Positions 54,096 to 62,771 of a stretch of 64,000 nt of DNA are shown in pieces. This DNA is from Alphaproteobacteria bacterium (GTDB lineage: Bacteria; Pseudomonadota; Alphaproteobacteria; UBA9219; RFNS01). Where the stretch lies: contig WGMR01000008.1 in the NCBI GenBank assembly GCA_016124955.1, forward strand, positions 144,004-208,003, given 5' to 3'. Below the pieces are notes generated by a model. That model was not told the DNA's origin. It did no database searches and saw nothing but the letters and a program-made list of their open reading frames with translations. The position numbers and the translations under genes are program-made. How positions within the stretch are numbered: the first letter of the stretch is position 1; each line of letters opens with the position of its first letter.

Positions 54096-55262
54096 ATGAC
54101 CCTCGTAACCGCCACTGAACAGCTTGCCGCCTTCTGCCAAAGCCTTAAGGGGGCGGATTTTGTCACCGTCGATACCGAATTCATGCGGGAACGGACCTAT
54201 TGGCCCAAGGTCTGCCTGATCCAGCTTGGCGGGCCAGACGCCGCCGTGGCGGTGGACCCGCTGGCGGAGAGTATCGACCTTGCGCCGCTTCTGGGGCTGA
54301 TGAACGACCCTTCCATCCTGAAGGTTTTTCATGCCGCCCGGCAGGATATCGAAATTTTCTATAACCTGACCGGCAAGGTGCCCGCGCCGCTGTTCGACAG
54401 CCAGATCGCGGCGATGGTTTGCGGGTTCGGCGAGGCCGCGAGCTATGAATCGCTTGCGGGCAAGCTTGCGGGCGCGCGGATCGACAAATCCAGCCGTTTC
54501 ACCGATTGGGCCTACAGGCCGCTAAGCCAGAAGCAGATCGATTACGCGCTCGGCGACGTGACTCATCTGCGCGTGGTTTATGAAAAACTGCGCGAACAGC
54601 TTGCGGAAAACGGCCGCACCGAATGGGTGACCGAAGAAATGGCGCAGCTTTCCGACCCCGCCAAATACCGCATGGACCCGGAAACCGCGTGGCAGAGGCT
54701 GAAGCTCCGCAACGAAAAGCCGCGCGTGCGCGCGCTGGTGAAGGAGCTGGCGGCGTGGCGCGAGGCTGAGGCGCAGAAAATCAATGTGCCGCGCCAACGC
54801 GTGATCAGGGACGAAACATTGCTGGAAATCGCGCACCATGCACCGGCCACCACGGCCGACCTTGCGCGCACGCGCGGGCTTAGCCAGAATTTTGCCGAAG
54901 GGCGGCAGGGCAGGGAGCTGATGGCCGCGGTCGAACGCGCGCAGGCCGTGCCATCCGATCAATGCCCGCCGGGCGCGGGCAAGCGGGTTTTGCCTTCATG
55001 GATCGGGCCGACCGTTGATCTGCTCAAGGTCTTGCTCAAGCACGTATGCGAACAGCACGGCGTGGCGCCCAAACTGATTGCGACCACGGACGATCTTGAA
55101 GATATCGCGGCGAACGACAATGCGGACGTTCCCGCCCTGCACGGCTGGCGCCACGAAATGTTCGGGAAACTGGCGCTGCAGCTCAAGCACGGCGAACTGG
55201 CGCTCAAGCTCGAAAAGCGGGGCGTCGCGCTTGCTAAAGTTGGATCCGCAGAGCGGAATTAA
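54096..55262 (+). CDS. rnd: Ribonuclease D
   Basis: 388 residues. The DEDD exonuclease motifs are DTEFMRERTYWPKVCLIQL, HAARQDIEIF, and the YALGDVTHLRVVYE tail of motif III. The HRDC domain sits in the C-terminal half (RDETLLEIAHHAPAT). RNase D trims tRNA and other small RNA 3' ends. It is divergent from aspS by 86 bp. Its last 29 nt overlap the end of ppx on the other strand. Confidence 0.95.
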   Translation: MTLVTATEQLAAFCQSLKGADFVTVDTEFMRERTYWPKVCLIQLGGPDAAVAVDPLAESIDLAPLLGLMNDPSILKVFHAARQDIEIFYNLTGKVPAPLFDSQIAAMVCGFGEAASYESLAGKLAGARIDKSSRFTDWAYRPLSQKQIDYALGDVTHLRVVYEKLREQLAENGRTEWVTEEMAQLSDPAKYRMDPETAWQRLKLRNEKPRVRALVKELAAWREAEAQKINVPRQRVIRDETLLEIAHHAPATTADLARTRGLSQNFAEGRQGRELMAAVERAQAVPSDQCPPGAGKRVLPSWIGPTVDLLKVLLKHVCEQHGVAPKLIATTDDLEDIAANDNADVPALHGWRHEMFGKLALQLKHGELALKLEKRGVALAKVGSAERN

Positions 55263-56328
55263 TATCCCTGCTCGGGATGATGGCGGCAGTTTTCATGTGC
55301 CTGCCCGATGAAACGGGCCTTTTGACGAAGGACGTTTGCTGTTCCGTCATCTTGCAGATGATGCCTTCGCGCAGGCCCAGTTTCGAGAAGGTTATGGTTT
55401 TCGCGCCGGTCAGCTTGATGAGCCGCAAAAGCGCGAGCGCGACGCCCGGTATGGCCTTGCCGCGGCGCGGGATCTTTTTGTTCATTTTTTTCGGATCGGT
55501 CGCCGCAAGCGTTTTCAGGAATTTTGCGAACGGCGCGCATGCGATCGTGTGGCCGTGCAGCTTGTCCTTTTTCTTCCGGGCAACAAGGTAAAGCTTGCCG
55601 ATTTTGCGGAAAGTACCGCCGACGCACACAAGATGTTTGCGGTTGCGCCCGAGCCAGGCGATGCGGGCGTAATACTGGTCAATAATACGGGCGGTTTCCT
55701 TCGCGCCGCGGGTTTTCATGCTGTTGTGCAGCGCCAGCGCGCCAAGTGGCAGCGCCGCTACCTCCTGCGTGCCGCCGCCCTTGCGCAGCACGGCATTGAG
55801 GTTTGTGATCTGCATGCTGCCGCCGCCGGCATCGACCACGAGGCCGCGCGCCTTCGGCAACCCCAGATGCACGCCGCGCGCCGCCAGCACGCCTTCCGTC
55901 GTGGCGTTTAAAACACGGGCGTTCCAGCCGAATTGACGGGCAATGCCCTTGACAAAATCGCCGCCGTCAGACGCAAGCCGCACGGCTGCGGTCGCGACTA
56001 CGATAACGTTGCAATCGGGGATTTCGCGGGCCTTCACTTGCCGCGCGAATTCCTTCAGCGTCGCGAGCGCCATGGATTTGCCGCGCTTCGGCAGCTTGTA
56101 GCTGCGCCCGGCCTTGGGGGCGACGATATCGAGCAACGAGCCCAGCTCGCAGAACTTCTTTTCGTTTAACTCAAGCACCGGCTTGCCGTTGTACCAGCGA
56201 TAAACAACCATGCGCACGCTGTTGGAACCGATATCGATGATCGCAATGGGGCGGGTGAGATAGATTTCCTGATGGATGTTTTGCAGCGACGCCGGAGGTT
56301 CGGGGGGACGCAGGATGGTTTTCGCCAT
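55234..56328 (-). CDS. ppx: Ppx/GppA-family phosphatase (exopolyphosphatase)
   Basis: 364 residues from the ATG at 56328 (AAAGG upstream); the long N-terminal frame above it is not expected in the family. The ASKHA-fold ATPase core is visible as PIAIIDIGSNSVRMVVYRW (phosphate-1), VVDAGGGSMQI (phosphate-2), plus KTITFSKLGLREGI. It is about 100 residues shorter than E. coli Ppx and lacks the C-terminal HD-like region, like short Ppx1 types. It degrades inorganic polyphosphate or pppGpp. ppk1 lies 4.2 kb upstream on the same strand, beyond an accessory island. Confidence 0.92.
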   Translation of the reverse strand: MAKTILRPPEPPASLQNIHQEIYLTRPIAIIDIGSNSVRMVVYRWYNGKPVLELNEKKFCELGSLLDIVAPKAGRSYKLPKRGKSMALATLKEFARQVKAREIPDCNVIVVATAAVRLASDGGDFVKGIARQFGWNARVLNATTEGVLAARGVHLGLPKARGLVVDAGGGSMQITNLNAVLRKGGGTQEVAALPLGALALHNSMKTRGAKETARIIDQYYARIAWLGRNRKHLVCVGGTFRKIGKLYLVARKKKDKLHGHTIACAPFAKFLKTLAATDPKKMNKKIPRRGKAIPGVALALLRLIKLTGAKTITFSKLGLREGIICKMTEQQTSFVKRPVSSGRHMKTAAIIPSRDINSALRIQL

Positions 56329-56575
56329 AGCGGGCCTTTCGTTGGTGCCCGATTCGGGCCGATTGTGCTTTGCACAAACTAGACCTTCGTATGCATGATG
56401 GCAATTATCCCAACAAGTTTTCCACCGTTTTTCGCCGCCTGTCACAGCCAGTTAAAACGGGTAACAAGTTGTTTTTGAAAAAAATGCACGTGCGCATGCA
56501 AGCATCGCTTCCACGGTTTCACTGGATGATGTAGAATGAACTCGAGAATCGTTGTGTTGGCCCGGAAGGTGCAAA

Positions 56576-57727
56576 ATGCCTCGGCAACCGGTGTTAAAAG
56601 ATTTCTCGGCCCAATCCTTACATATTCTGCCTGTTTTATTTGCCGTATCTTTGCTGGCGGCGCCCGCCTGCGCTTCCTCGCAGCCCGTTTTGTATGTCGG
56701 TGACAATGCCGGCGGGGTCGTGAACGGGGTGCAGGTTCTGGGCGCGACCACCGGCAATACGCCGTTAATCGCGCCGCTTGGTACCGATACGAATGTCGGG
56801 CTTATGCTGACAACGCAGGGCAGCGGCGTGCTTGCGTTGCAAACCGCCGGTAGCGGCAATGTCATCCTTGCGCCGGACAGCGGCGCTGTGGTTATCCCGG
56901 CATTCACGACTGCCGGCATTGTGTTGAATAGTTCATCCGGCGAATTATCGTCCGATACAGACCTTCCGGACGGAACGACGGCGACAACGCAAAGTGCCAG
57001 CGATAATTCAACCAAGCTTGCCACCACCGCCTATGTCGATGATGCCGTGAGTGGCGGCGGCGGGGCGATCAAGAGCGTCCATGTCCAGACCTTCACCAGC
57101 AGCGGCACCTATACGCCCACAACCGGCATGGCATATGCGATTGTGGAGGTTGTCGGCGGCGGCGGGGGTGGTTCGTCATCTGGACATGGCTCGATCGGCG
57201 GTACGGGCGGCGGATCCGGCGCATATTCCAGAAGTATCCTTACAGCGGCCACGATAGGCGCATCTCAAGCGGTCACTATTGGAAGCGGTGGTTCCGGCGG
57301 AGCAACAGGTAGCGCGGGTACGGGAGTCATTGGTAGTAATGGAGGCACCAGCAGTTTCGGGTCTTTGGTCACGGCGGGCGGCGGTTTTGGTGGAGCCGCA
57401 ACAGGCTATTTCAGCGGGCAAAATGCTCCGTCGAATCCCGGCGCAGGAGGCAATACGGGAACGGCCGATTTTGCAACTACCGGCAACCCCGGGATGCCAG
57501 GATTTGGCATGGCCGGTTGGGGGGCTGGTAACTTTGGACCTGGCGGCAATGGCGGCCCTTCTTATTTTGGTGGCAGTGGCAACGGTGGCGGATTTGGCGG
57601 CGGCACAGGAGGGACAGGTAGTAAAGGCGGCGGTGGCGGCGGTTCAGGTCCAGGAAATGGTGGCTTTTATGCCGGTGCTGCCGGCGGCAGCGGCATCGTC
57701 ATCGTCACGGAATACTGCACGCAATGA
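56576..57727 (+). CDS. Secreted glycine-rich protein with phage tail-fibre motif
   Basis: 383 residues from the ATG at 56576 (GGAAGGTG 4 nt upstream). A signal peptide ends near residue 33 (APACA). A beta-rich region (35-135) with repetitive NVGLMLTTQGSGVLAL follows. Then comes ASDNSTKLATTAYV (141-154), which is frequent before the receptor-binding part of phage tail fibres. The glycine-rich C-terminus (about 193-375) is over half Gly, with GGSGNGGGFGGG-like runs, and ends SGIVIVTEYC. It is probably an exported surface protein. It opens the accessory island, with its stop overlapping the upstream start candidates of the next gene. Confidence 0.78.
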   Translation: MPRQPVLKDFSAQSLHILPVLFAVSLLAAPACASSQPVLYVGDNAGGVVNGVQVLGATTGNTPLIAPLGTDTNVGLMLTTQGSGVLALQTAGSGNVILAPDSGAVVIPAFTTAGIVLNSSSGELSSDTDLPDGTTATTQSASDNSTKLATTAYVDDAVSGGGGAIKSVHVQTFTSSGTYTPTTGMAYAIVEVVGGGGGGSSSGHGSIGGTGGGSGAYSRSILTAATIGASQAVTIGSGGSGGATGSAGTGVIGSNGGTSSFGSLVTAGGGFGGAATGYFSGQNAPSNPGAGGNTGTADFATTGNPGMPGFGMAGWGAGNFGPGGNGGPSYFGGSGNGGGFGGGTGGTGSKGGGGGGSGPGNGGFYAGAAGGSGIVIVTEYCTQ

Positions 57728-57759
57728 GCCGGGTTGAGAGTCATATCAGGAGGTACACC

Positions 57760-59541
57760 ATGAGGAAGGACCGGAGCTGTCTAACTTTCGCTGTGCTGGC
57801 GCTGGCCTTCATGCCTGCTGCTGCCCACGCTAACTCTGCCGATTTTTCCGGTGCGGTCGCAATTGGCACCGGCTATGCGGGGGCGGTTGCGGCGCCGACG
57901 GACGGGCTGATTGTGGAAGGCGATGTCGGGATCGGCACAAGCACTGTTTCCCATACGCTTGAGCTGAACGGAACCTTCAATGCCGCAGGCGCAACGACAC
58001 TCGGCAGCACTTTGGATGTTACCGGGGCGGCAACATTGAGCAGTACGCTTGGCGTTACAGGCGCCACAACGCTCAGCGACACGTTGGCCGTAACCGGGGC
58101 GACGACGCTGGGCGATACGCTCGGCATTACCGGCGCGGTGACTCTTTCGGACCTCAATGCCGCAGGCGTGGTGACGACGGACGCTTCGGGCGTGCTTGCG
58201 ACCAACGCGACCCTTCCGGCCGGGCAATTCCCCGCTCTGACGGGCGATGTCACCACGGCGGGCGGCGTGCTCGCCACCACTGTGGCCGCCATACAGGGCG
58301 AAACGGTTAGCGGCACGACCGGCACTACGAGCGTCGTGTTTTCGGGCTCACCCACGATTGCGACACCGACGATTACGACCTCGGCCACCGTGCCGCTGGT
58401 GATCGGCGGCACGGGCGCAGCTTCCACGCTGACGCTTGAGAGCACCTCCGGCACCGGCACTTCCGACGCCATCATCTTCAACACCGGCAGCCAGGTGGAA
58501 GCGATGCGGATTACGACTGACGGGGCCATAGGGATTGGCACTGCTGCGCCGCTTGCCGGCGCGGCGCTCGATGTAAACGGGGTTGCGAATATTACATCCC
58601 TGAAGCTGAACCAAAACCCTGCGCCACACGCGCCGGGCGGCAGGCTTACGCTTTCCAGCAATACGCCTGTGATGATCGCGGACGTAAACGCCGCGACGAC
58701 GATTTATTACGCCGCTTTTGTGGGGGACCTTGTGCCGATTTATGACGGCACAAACTGGTCGGAATATGCGCTTGGCGGGCAAATCTCGCTGGCGCTCGAT
58801 AGCGATTCCGGCCACACCGGCTATCAGCAATCGGGTAAGCTGTTTGATCTTGTCATCCGCAACAATTCCGGCAGCGCGCAGCTTTGCACCGGCCCGGCCT
58901 GGAGCAGCGATACCGCGCGCGCCAGTGCAATCGTCATGCAAAATGGCATATGGACCAATTCGGGCAGCTGGACGGCGAAGTGCGATACAACATCATCGAC
59001 CTACACTTGTTCGGCGAACCAGTGCACCTATGTGGGCACTATGTATGCGACGGCGAACGGGCAGACGCAGATGAATATGTTTCCCGGCCAAGCTGCTGGC
59101 GGGACGAACAACATTGTTGGCCTTTACAATGCATACAATCGTGTAAGGCTTGTTTCGGTGGAAAGAGATAGTACCGCCAACTATAGCTACACGACAGGCG
59201 CATGGAGGGCATGCAACAATTCCACCAGCAACCGGATCACGTTTGTTGATGGTTTAGGGCAAAGCATTATTGTCGCGCCTATGCAAGGAAATCTTACGGT
59301 AGGAACTTCGGGATTTGCCATGCAATCTGCACTTGATGCTACATCGCCCAATGGCTCCGGTTATCAGCCGGCAACGAACTTTACGCCCTCTTCAGGAACC
59401 GTACTCTTTTCGGGGGCGACAACGGCGTATTATGTGCCCGTTCTGGGGCTGCATTTTGTGCAGTGTATCGAATACGGCGGCATTAACGATACTTTCAGGC
59501 CGCCTTTCAGATATATGCTTGCAATAGAAATGGACAATTAA
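57760..59541 (+). CDS. Secreted repeat protein, tail-fibre/adhesin-like
   Basis: 593 residues from the ATG at 57760, with a strong AGGAGGT SD 7 nt upstream. The signal peptide ends near residue 24 (AAAHA). Four to five 12-residue repeats (about 77-132) read T-L-x-x-T-L-x-V-T-G-A-T, a triple-stranded beta-helix style repeat as in phage tail fibres. Next come GVGTS/ALDVNG-type motifs (GIGTAAPLAGAALDVNG) that mark the base of trimeric fibre heads. The C-terminal half (about 310-593) is Ser/Thr/Asn-rich with several cysteines. It probably forms a trimeric extracellular fibre. No phage structural genes accompany it. It is cotranscribed with the glycine-rich gene. Confidence 0.78.
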   Translation: MRKDRSCLTFAVLALAFMPAAAHANSADFSGAVAIGTGYAGAVAAPTDGLIVEGDVGIGTSTVSHTLELNGTFNAAGATTLGSTLDVTGAATLSSTLGVTGATTLSDTLAVTGATTLGDTLGITGAVTLSDLNAAGVVTTDASGVLATNATLPAGQFPALTGDVTTAGGVLATTVAAIQGETVSGTTGTTSVVFSGSPTIATPTITTSATVPLVIGGTGAASTLTLESTSGTGTSDAIIFNTGSQVEAMRITTDGAIGIGTAAPLAGAALDVNGVANITSLKLNQNPAPHAPGGRLTLSSNTPVMIADVNAATTIYYAAFVGDLVPIYDGTNWSEYALGGQISLALDSDSGHTGYQQSGKLFDLVIRNNSGSAQLCTGPAWSSDTARASAIVMQNGIWTNSGSWTAKCDTTSSTYTCSANQCTYVGTMYATANGQTQMNMFPGQAAGGTNNIVGLYNAYNRVRLVSVERDSTANYSYTTGAWRACNNSTSNRITFVDGLGQSIIVAPMQGNLTVGTSGFAMQSALDATSPNGSGYQPATNFTPSSGTVLFSGATTAYYVPVLGLHFVQCIEYGGINDTFRPPFRYMLAIEMDN

Positions 59542-59598
59542 AAGTTTTTTGCAATATGATAAATCCCGATTCGTATTTTATTTAGAAAGGTTTCTCAC

Positions 59599-60486
59599 GT
59601 GCATCCAAGGCAATATGATCAAGAAGCTGCCGAGCGTGCAAAGGCGTTGCGCGCAGCCTACGATAGTGATCCCGAGGGGATTAAGGGCGAGATCAAAAAG
59701 GAAGTATCAAAATACCACTTTTATCATGATATCGAAATTGTCCCTGGCGTTAGAACGGATTGTTTTCCGCACGCACACACTCTTGTTAACCCTATCATGG
59801 AAGTCAGCAAGCAGCTTGATTTCAAGGGCAAACGTGTACTCGATATTGGGTGCCGTGATGGTGCCATGGCTCTTTATGCGGAATCGATGGGGGCAAGCGA
59901 GGTCTATGGCATCGATAACGATTGCTCCATGGGTTTGATGAACTTTGTTATTCCCTTCAAAAACTCATCTATTAAGTTGATTGAGTGCAATCTTAACGAA
60001 CTGGACCGACATGATCTCGGGCAGTTCGACATTATTTTCTTTTGTGGTGTCTTGTACCATTTGCAATCCCCGTTTTGGGGGCTGCGGCAGGTTGCGCAAT
60101 CCATGCGTGAAGGGGGAACTGTAATACTTGAAACCTCGATTCTTGATGTATTTCATGATTTTCCGATTGTTGCATACCTTACCTACGAAACGTCTCCCTA
60201 TGAGGCAACTAGTCCAACTTTCTATAACCTTGCAGGGTTGCGCCGCGCTGTTGGTTTATTTGGATTCGAGGAGTATGGGCAATCAACAAGATGGAAAGAT
60301 AAACCCGTCGATGCAGGAAAATACTTTCCTGAGTTTGCTAAACACAATGATCAACTCTCCAAGATAGATGTGTACCGTCAAACAACCCTTTTTAAAAAGG
60401 TGGAAACGGCGAAGCTAAAAGGGCTGGAAGGCTATTTTGAAGGCCTGCATAGTATGCACAGCAAGGGAAAAGACAGGTGGAATTAG
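59599..60486 (+). CDS. CmoB-like class I SAM-dependent methyltransferase
   Basis: 295 residues from a GTG start (AAAGG about 9 nt upstream). The SAM-binding motif I is VLDIGCRDG (80-88), followed by YGIDND and FCGVLYHLQSP. The upstream segment FYHDIEIVPGVRTD resembles the DUF1698/CmoB-like family, which includes tRNA and small-molecule methyltransferases. The gene is markedly A+T-rich (one sampled 60-base segment is about 37% GC) against its surroundings, a sign of recent acquisition. It follows the two secreted-protein genes and may modify a surface glycan (inference). Confidence 0.8.
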   Translation: MHPRQYDQEAAERAKALRAAYDSDPEGIKGEIKKEVSKYHFYHDIEIVPGVRTDCFPHAHTLVNPIMEVSKQLDFKGKRVLDIGCRDGAMALYAESMGASEVYGIDNDCSMGLMNFVIPFKNSSIKLIECNLNELDRHDLGQFDIIFFCGVLYHLQSPFWGLRQVAQSMREGGTVILETSILDVFHDFPIVAYLTYETSPYEATSPTFYNLAGLRRAVGLFGFEEYGQSTRWKDKPVDAGKYFPEFAKHNDQLSKIDVYRQTTLFKKVETAKLKGLEGYFEGLHSMHSKGKDRWN

Positions 60487-60499
60487 ATCGCCTTATCTT

Positions 60500-62680
60500 C
60501 TAGCCCAGTCTATCCCGATTAAAAATAAGCTGCGGGGGCATGCTTTTTGCCTCGTCCGCGCTGCCCCGGCCCGAAAGGGAGGGGTTGTTCATAAAATAAT
60601 CATGGGCGCAGAAGCCGGTGCCATCATCGGCCGCCCTTGTATAACTGCCATCCGGTTCCAGAAGCCAGCTTTGCCGTCTGTCGTTGAGGTTGGCGACCAT
60701 AATCTGTTCCAGAACTTGCTGTTTCACGGTTGCGTTTTCGATCGGCACCAGCGTTTCGATGCGGCGATCGAGGTTGCGCGGCATCCAGTCAGCCGACGAA
60801 ATAAAAACCTTGGCTTCCGCCGAAGGCAGGCCTTGCCCGTTGCCGAAGCAGACGACGCGGCTGTGTTCAAGGAAGCGGCCGACGATGCTTTTTACCCTTA
60901 TATTTTCGGAAAGGCCGGCAACGCCGGGGCGCAGGCAGCATGCGCCGCGCACCACAAGGTCTATCTGCACGCCGGCGCATGAAGCTTCGTAAAGCCTGTC
61001 GATAATGGCCGGATCAACCAGCGCGTTCATTTTGGCCCAGATTTGCCCGGCACGGCCCGCGCGGGCGTGGGCGATTTCATCCGCGATCAATTGTTCCAGC
61101 GTTTGCCGCAGCCCGGTGGGAGATATGATCAGCTTCCCGAGGCCCTGCGGCGTGGCATAGCCGGTCATGTAGTTGAAGATATGCACGGTGTCTTCGCAGA
61201 TTACCGGGTCGCACGAGAAGTAGGAAAGATCGGTATAGATCTTGGCGTTGGTCGGGTGGTAATTGCCGGTGCCGAGATGGACGTAGGAACGCAGGCCTTC
61301 GCCTTCGCGCCGGACCACGAGCGATATCTTGGAATGGGTTTTTAGATCGACGAATCCGAACATGACCTGCGCGCCCGCGCGCTCCAGATCGCGCGCCCAG
61401 CGTATGTTGGCTTCTTCGTCGAAGCGGGCCTTGAGCTCGACCATCACGATCACGCTCTTGCCCGCTTCCGCCGCTTCGATCAGCGCTTTGACGATGGGCG
61501 AATCCTTGCTGGTGCGGTACAGCGTTTGCTTGATGGCCACTACGTTCGGGTCGCGCGCCGCCTGCCGCAGAAATTGCACCACCACATCGAAACTTTCATA
61601 CGGGTGGTGGACGATGATATCCTTGGCGCGGATCGCGGCGAAACAATCGCCGCTGTGTTCGCGGATGCGTTCGGGAAAGCGTTCCTTGAAGACCGGGAAC
61701 AGCAAATCGGGCCTGTCGGGTGTGATGATCTTGTTGACATCGGCCAGGCGGATGGTACCGCTGTTGACCACCATGCGTTCGGGCGGCACATCAAGTTCGT
61801 CGCACAGAAATTCGCGCAGCTCGGCCGGCATGGTGGAAGCGACCGCAAGCCTGATCACGCGCCCGCGATAGCGCCGCTTCAGCGCGGTTTCGTAATGGCG
61901 CACAAGATCATCGGTATCTTCGTCGAACTGGATCTCGCTGTTGCGCAGCACGCGGAAAGCGCCGTGGCTCAGCACTTCGAACTGCGGGAATAGCTGATCG
62001 AGGAAGCACATGGCGGCGTGCTCGAGCAGCACGAAACGGATGGTTGCCTCGCCGTCATGCTGCGGCAGGCGGATGAAGCGTTCGAGCTGCATCGGGAGCG
62101 GTATCAGCGCCATCATCTTTTCGCGCGCCGCCGGGTCGAACAGATGCAGCGCCAGCGCCACGCCGGAATTGGGAATGAAGGGGAAGGGGTGCGCCGGATC
62201 GACCGCGACCGGCGTCAGCAGCGGCAAAATATTGCTTTTGAAATGCTGCAACAGCCAATCGTGGTCAGCGAGCGAAAGATCTTCCGGCTCCACGATCAGG
62301 ATATCGTTACGCGCCAGCGCGCGCTGCAACCCGTGCCACGTGACCTGCATATCCTGTATCAGCGCGCGCGTCAGTTCGTTGGCCATAGCCAGAAGCTGCG
62401 CCGCCGTTTTGCCGTCGTCGGTGCGCAGCGGCACCTTGGCTTCCATCTGCGCTTCAATTCCCGCCGTGCGCACGATGGTGAATTCATCAAGGTTGCTGGC
62501 GGCGATGCTGAGGAAGCGCACCCGCTCAAGCAGGGGGTGCCGTTCGTTCATCGCTTCTTCAAGCACGCGCCGGTTGAAAGCCAGCCACGATTGCTCGCGG
62601 TTGATAAAGCGTTCCGGCGCGTCATGGCTTATCGCCCGTTCCGGCGCTGCTGAGGGTGGGGTTGCTGGGCTGTCTGGCAT
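60500..62680 (-). CDS. ppk1: Polyphosphate kinase 1
   Basis: 726 residues from the ATG at 62680. The four PPK1 domains are present: the N-terminal FINREQSWLAFNRRVLEEA, head domain, and two C-terminal phospholipase-D-like halves. The latter hold the autophosphorylated histidine region (KDIIVHHPYESFDVV) and KTHSKISLVVRREGEGL, with SADWMPRNLDRRIE near the C-terminus. It makes inorganic polyphosphate from ATP. ppx, its usual neighbour, lies 4.2 kb downstream after the island. Its stop is 13 nt from the convergent methyltransferase stop. Confidence 0.96.
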   Translation of the reverse strand: MPDSPATPPSAAPERAISHDAPERFINREQSWLAFNRRVLEEAMNERHPLLERVRFLSIAASNLDEFTIVRTAGIEAQMEAKVPLRTDDGKTAAQLLAMANELTRALIQDMQVTWHGLQRALARNDILIVEPEDLSLADHDWLLQHFKSNILPLLTPVAVDPAHPFPFIPNSGVALALHLFDPAAREKMMALIPLPMQLERFIRLPQHDGEATIRFVLLEHAAMCFLDQLFPQFEVLSHGAFRVLRNSEIQFDEDTDDLVRHYETALKRRYRGRVIRLAVASTMPAELREFLCDELDVPPERMVVNSGTIRLADVNKIITPDRPDLLFPVFKERFPERIREHSGDCFAAIRAKDIIVHHPYESFDVVVQFLRQAARDPNVVAIKQTLYRTSKDSPIVKALIEAAEAGKSVIVMVELKARFDEEANIRWARDLERAGAQVMFGFVDLKTHSKISLVVRREGEGLRSYVHLGTGNYHPTNAKIYTDLSYFSCDPVICEDTVHIFNYMTGYATPQGLGKLIISPTGLRQTLEQLIADEIAHARAGRAGQIWAKMNALVDPAIIDRLYEASCAGVQIDLVVRGACCLRPGVAGLSENIRVKSIVGRFLEHSRVVCFGNGQGLPSAEAKVFISSADWMPRNLDRRIETLVPIENATVKQQVLEQIMVANLNDRRQSWLLEPDGSYTRAADDGTGFCAHDYFMNNPSLSGRGSADEAKSMPPQLIFNRDRLG

Positions 62681-62771
62681 GGGCAAGGATGGGCTATCAA
62701 TGTTCCTGTCTATATATTAGAACATAAGCAACGTTAAAAAATGTATAGCAATGATATCAGGTGGTTAACAT

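Follow-up and report, generated by a model that had tools for sequence, protein, structure and literature searches.

One of the questions raised by this stretch of an alphaproteobacterial genome is why ppx and ppk1, which both lie on the minus strand, are held apart by three genes that run in the opposite direction. Where did these genes come from, what do they encode, and is there a reason for finding them together? The answer that appears likely is that they represent a horizontally acquired cassette, consisting of a surface-adhesin operon that resembles the mosaic adhesive trimer (MAT) fibres and a glycan-type methyltransferase, which was inserted into a ppk1-ppx operon.

Layout of the locus

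The window, by which is meant the whole 64,000-nucleotide stretch of DNA that was analysed, belongs to a genome (G000) of 1.93 Mb, and the nearest relatives that were compared with it are of different genera within the same family. The interval in question extends over 4.17 kb from the ATG of ppx to the stop codon of ppk1 (56329-60499), and contains three long open reading frames on the plus strand. The features of the locus are as follows.

55234-56328, minus strand: ppx, a short exopolyphosphatase of 364 aa forming the intact left flank (Ppx-GppA at 1e-27, for the longer open reading frame)
56329-56575, no strand: ppx/cassette intergenic region, which from a reading of the sequence must hold the start signals for both
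56576-57727, plus strand: gene 1, predicted exported glycine-rich fibre-like protein of 383 aa (Gly_rich_2, PHROG 863, signal-like N-terminus)
57760-59541, plus strand: gene 2, predicted exported mosaic fibre protein of 593 aa (module homologies, signal peptide)
59599-60486, plus strand: gene 3, SAM-dependent methyltransferase of 295 aa with a GTG start (Methyltransf_9/23)
60500-62686, minus strand: ppk1, polyphosphate kinase forming the intact right flank (Pfam PP_kinase domains; 53-63% identity to relatives)

For ppx the nearest NCBIfam model is TIGR03706 (2.1e-54, which is below the cut-off of the model). The cassette genes are separated by just 32 bp (genes 1 and 2) and 57 bp (genes 2 and 3), strong ribosome-binding sites are found upstream of genes 1 and 2 (GGAAGG and AGGAGG, respectively, ahead of the ATG), and the three would be transcribed as an operon. 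Gene 3 converges on ppk1, with the two stop codons 13 bp apart. That the encoded proteins are not chance reading frames is evident from their matches to Pfam, to PHROG 863 and, by tblastn, to phages (tblastn E of 3e-32). A sequence-only reading of this DNA had described a 4.2-kb plus-strand block that splits ppx from ppk1, with both of the latter on the minus strand, and the coordinates agree with this description. The same reading placed aspS and rnd next to ppx, which is correct as far as the neighbours are concerned, but of these only aspS is on the minus strand, since rnd (54096-55262) is encoded on the plus strand and is convergent with ppx. Upstream of ppx on the minus strand (56500-56476) there is a strong terminator-like palindrome with a run of T, a pattern match only, in a region where such sites are no more numerous than in shuffled sequences, and this could act as a block to antisense read-through from ppk1.

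The uninterrupted site in relatives

The case for insertion is founded on the arrangement of the locus in other genomes. In seven relatives, one from the same family (G001), three from the same order (G005, G009 and G032) and three from the same class (G033, G035 and G036), ppk1 leads directly into ppx in the same orientation, the two genes either overlapping or lying 0-18 bp apart, which is the arrangement of an operon. The surroundings are also preserved, as rnd and aspS are kept beyond ppx in G033 and G035, and sixA is divergent from ppk1 in G001 just as it is in the window. The general expectation that ppk and ppx are often adjacent is thus borne out in these seven genomes, where the synteny comparison that had been proposed as a check does find the empty site, and the suggestion of an insertion into a housekeeping locus is supported by it. 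When relatives with the trio in this place, and a habitual separation of ppk from ppx, were looked for, no relative was found to carry the three genes here and ppk and ppx were normally together. Indeed, no orthologue of the trio was detected at ppk1-ppx or elsewhere in 59-96 relatives. In view of the empty sites, the idea that the trio was linked to ppx from the outset is rejected.

The ppk1 interval is nonetheless subject to a more general turnover of genes, as seen in a second family (G004, G006, G008 and G010) where aspS-rnd-ppk1-sixA is kept but where the gap contains other open reading frames and no recognisable ppx. In a further genome of the order (G028) a related exported fibre is located approximately 8 kb from ppx. 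Boundary repeats of the insert and mobility genes at it were looked for, and neither was found.

Base composition adds to this picture. Whereas the GC3 of aspS, rnd, ppx and ppk1 ranges from 0.75 to 0.81, it falls to 0.58 in gene 1, 0.66 in gene 2 and 0.47 in gene 3, and this lowering of GC3 supports a foreign origin for the cassette genes, most clearly for the methyltransferase. The GC3 of gene 3 is the lowest of the 49 open reading frames in the window (non-overlapping, of at least 150 aa), for which the median is 0.73. In terms of overall GC the fibre genes are close to the 59% of the window (60% for gene 1 and 59% for gene 2), so that the methyltransferase (45.5%), which had already been noted as low in GC, is the sole strongly low-GC gene of the trio. 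The block may be envisaged as an accessory operon, most likely acquired by horizontal transfer, that entered the gap of the ancestral ppk1-ppx operon.

Two fibre-like proteins built from phage-type modules

Both of the first two genes encode proteins with Sec-type signal-like N-termini and phage tail-fibre-type tips, so the earlier description of them as two exported fibre-like proteins agrees with what their sequences predict, and that of a surface-structure cassette fits, with exposure at the surface being the inferred part. Gene 1 has a hydrophobic N-terminus of this kind, a Gly_rich_2 tip (Pfam, 2.7e-8), a match to the phage tail-fibre family PHROG 863 at 5.7e-33, and relatives in IMG/VR. 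Gene 2, whose signal peptide ends in A-H-A, is more elaborate and can be divided into the following parts.

57760-57939, plus strand: signal peptide and conserved N-terminal module, ANSADFSGAVAIGTGYAGxxAAPTxGLIVxGxVGIGT (alignment, order-wide search)
57986-58129, plus strand: 36-bp (12-aa) tandem repeats within the shaft (repeat family D1)
58486-58593, plus strand: shaft module GSQVEAMRITTDGAIGIGTAAPLAGAALDVNG, which resembles Bdellovibrio MAT shafts (profile search of PDB sequences)
58600-59541, plus strand: C-terminal phage-type receptor-binding tip (Pam5, IMG/VR identity, alignments A1 and A3)

The N-terminal module of gene 2 shares 20 invariant residues (positions 25-60) with fibres of G028, G013 and G027, and is present in 17 of the 33 genomes of the order (E<=0.01). 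These relatives terminate in a variety of tips, including S74 (G013 and G027), a Gly-rich tip (G028) and another phage-type tip (G027), and the combination of the same N-terminal module with different tips is direct evidence of mosaicism. Gene 2 itself has no S74 domain. Its tip is 34% identical to that of the tail spike of cyanophage Pam5, and 38% and 39% identical to sequences on the IMG/VR loci L069 and L070. Searches of the PDB gave no match, either with a profile of the tip or with genes 1 and 2 as single sequences. Neither a membrane anchor nor a dedicated export system could be recognised for the cassette fibres.

Two observations on related fibres can be added. One IMG/VR contig (L070:4764-7139, L071:4764-7139) encodes a 791-aa tail fibre that has a signal-peptide-like N-terminus and lies in an apparent baseplate module. 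In G032 (C340) an apparent tyrosine recombinase gene, recognised by eye, is found directly 3' of a fibre of the same family (L152:880-1782), which is a possible hint of mobility.

Could the fibre genes simply be what is left after the integration of a phage tail module in the ppk1-ppx gap, serving no function for the host? In favour of this, both tips are of phage type, the 791-aa fibre of the apparent baseplate module also has a signal-like N-terminus, and the same tip family is found in Agrobacterium phage Rivra, where genes for a glycosyltransferase and a methyltransferase lie a few genes away. However, within or beside the 4.2 kb there is no integrase, no other phage gene, whether structural or for lysis, no att-like repeat and no tRNA, while the three genes are intact, tightly spaced and, for the fibres, preceded by their strong ribosome-binding sites. 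Moreover, the N-terminal module recurs across the order in housekeeping contexts that are not those of prophages, and for the methyltransferase a search at 1e-5 gave no phage homologue, a scan of viral contigs likewise returning no relative. A phage remnant is consequently an unlikely explanation.

The comparison with the phage proteins is instructive in another respect. The Pam5 (a Pseudanabaena phage) tail spike and the Rivra fibre share with gene 2 a C-terminal tip of ~280-300 aa at 30-34% identity, but they are virion proteins of tail modules, whereas gene 2 has a signal peptide, an order-specific N-terminal module and no phage context.

Likeness to the MAT fibres

The MAT proteins of Bdellovibrio bacteriovorus are surface fibres for the handling of prey, one of which binds glycans (PMC10769870). 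When the fibre profile (A4) was compared with PDB sequences, the matches were to the MAT chains 8ond (Bd2133, 7.5e-10), 8oml (2.5e-7) and 8ojn (2e-5), with the T5 fibre and MyRF S74 chains scoring below these. The match covers the GIGTxxP module, which is found in gene 2 from residue 243 onwards. The features that are held in common with the MAT fibres are the signal peptide, the modules of phage tail-fibre type, the repeated shaft motif with its G-[IL]-G-T-x-x-P loop, the exchangeable tips, with S74 and non-S74 forms within one family, and the presence of several copies per genome. Thus the shaft with its capping loop is found at the level of sequence, the C-termini are mosaic (S74, Gly-rich, Pam5-type and one other tip), and the signal-like N-terminus is accompanied by a module conserved across the order, the MAT proteins for their part having a conserved N-terminal domain of ~130 aa. 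The shaft motif is also present in phage fibres (L072), and the match to MAT is therefore compatible with a plain phage-fibre origin.

There are also differences. Gene 2 is shorter, at 593 aa as against ~1000 aa for the MAT proteins, and has a tip of the Pam5 type. Unlike the MAT genes, it shares a small predicted operon with a methyltransferase gene. The host is alphaproteobacterial, and the resemblance concerns the fibres, with predation not being claimed.

On this basis genes 1 and 2 would encode Sec-exported fibres built of phage tail-fibre modules, which would trimerise through a beta-rich shaft and be displayed outside the cell, most likely in the manner of the MAT fibres, with exchangeable C-terminal tips that may bind glycans or other surface ligands. 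The cassette is probably an adhesion module.

The methyltransferase and its association with fibres

What, then, is the role of gene 3? The protein has a SAM-binding core and no signal peptide, and matches the Pfam families Methyltransf_9 (2.1e-14) and Methyltransf_23 (1.2e-12). Candidate assignments as CmoB (65 bits against a cut-off of 209) and as TIGR04290 (50 bits against 300) fall far under the curated cut-offs and so neither name applies. Its closest relatives among 385 genomes of the class are in G355 (39%) and G342 (35%), the former adjoining a glycosyltransferase and the latter near a gene of the Wzy or O-antigen ligase type and a flippase. In its core and in the glycan loci of its relatives gene 3 thus resembles the methyltransferases of polysaccharide loci (Methyltransf_9/23, with a CmoB-like or TIGR04290-like fold), but differs from them in being linked to fibre genes. 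It would be a cytoplasmic enzyme, most likely methylating a sugar or glycan precursor, and this methylation may alter the surface on which the fibres anchor or which they recognise.

The association is repeated elsewhere in the order. In G013 a methyltransferase gene comes after a pair of exported-fibre genes in the same orientation, the three being set among housekeeping genes, and in G027 an exported fibre lies between two methyltransferases that belong to the Pfam families of gene 3, with an FkbM-type gene beyond. Overall, a methyltransferase directly adjoins a fibre in 2 of 13 other fibre loci, for which a rough binomial calculation gives 0.007 against an idealised background of ~10 such methyltransferase genes per genome, the fibre loci being few and their list read by eye from open reading frames. 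That the adjacency exceeds chance is suggestive only, as such genes may be common at surface loci in any case.

The fibre pair might alternatively be adhesins beside which an unrelated low-GC methyltransferase gene happened to land. The difference in GC and GC3 (0.47 as against 0.58-0.66) agrees with this, as does the lack of a methyltransferase neighbour at most other exported-fibre loci. Against it are the shared strand and the 57-bp gap, and the repetition in G013 of the order fibre, fibre, methyltransferase, where again the methyltransferase is the gene with the lowest GC, making a chance neighbour improbable.

Two further proposals would give the pairing a more specific purpose. In one, the exported fibres would act as decoys occupying the cell's own phage receptors while the glycan of the receptor is modified by the methyltransferase; the homology of the tips to phage receptor-binding proteins and the glycan-type relatives of gene 3 can be cited in its favour. 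However, the fibres match no defence family, PADLOC matches the methyltransferase just to the generic methyltransferase part of mad2, and the S74 and other adhesin-like tips of the wider family in the order would not be needed by decoys, so that shielding is very unlikely. In the other, the phage-derived fibres would bind the glycans of other cells while the methyltransferase caps those of the producer, thereby sparing self and kin. We give little credence to such discrimination; if true, the cassette would be one of many swappable ones in an order where MAT-like fibres and S74-tipped pilins abound.

Under the preferred reading, that of an acquired adhesin operon with a glycan-type methyltransferase, the proteins are MAT-like fibres of phage derivation, a kind already known, in a form that ends in a phage receptor-binding tip and is paired with a methyltransferase. 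The range of MAT-like, phage-derived exported fibres would thereby come to include an alphaproteobacterial order with near-universal S74 fibres, such modules would be seen to spread in the form of small cassettes that interrupt housekeeping operons, and the recurring methyltransferase neighbours suggest that adhesin specificity may be linked to glycan methylation, an idea open to testing.

S74 fibres across the order

S74 domains are present in 32 of the 33 genomes of the order, as against 1 of 14 control genomes. In G000 itself four S74 fibre domains are clustered in tandem on contig C4, so that the cassette adds to an existing arsenal of S74/MAT-like fibres and does not introduce a new type of protein. 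This cluster (L226:2204-15819) encodes exported S74 fibres, including a protein of 1956 aa with a prepilin-like N-terminus, and lies beside a uppP-like gene. At comparable places in G013, G027, G005 and G006 there are giant fibres, also prepilin-like, of 2252-4028 aa.

Contig C7 of G000 encodes, in a cluster of the pilus/secretion type, a protein that is prepilin-like by its N_methyl motif and has an S74 chaperone domain at the C-terminus (L227:6967-8361), and similar genes of 450-510 aa are seen in several further genomes of the order. A literature search for S74 joined with pilins found no paper. Micavibrio was considered as a possible identity for the order, but a type IV secretion system has been reported as absent from its genome (PMC3189940), while in G003 and G005 genes that by eye resemble IcmB/DotO-type ATPases are found near the S74-tipped pilin genes (L230 and L235).
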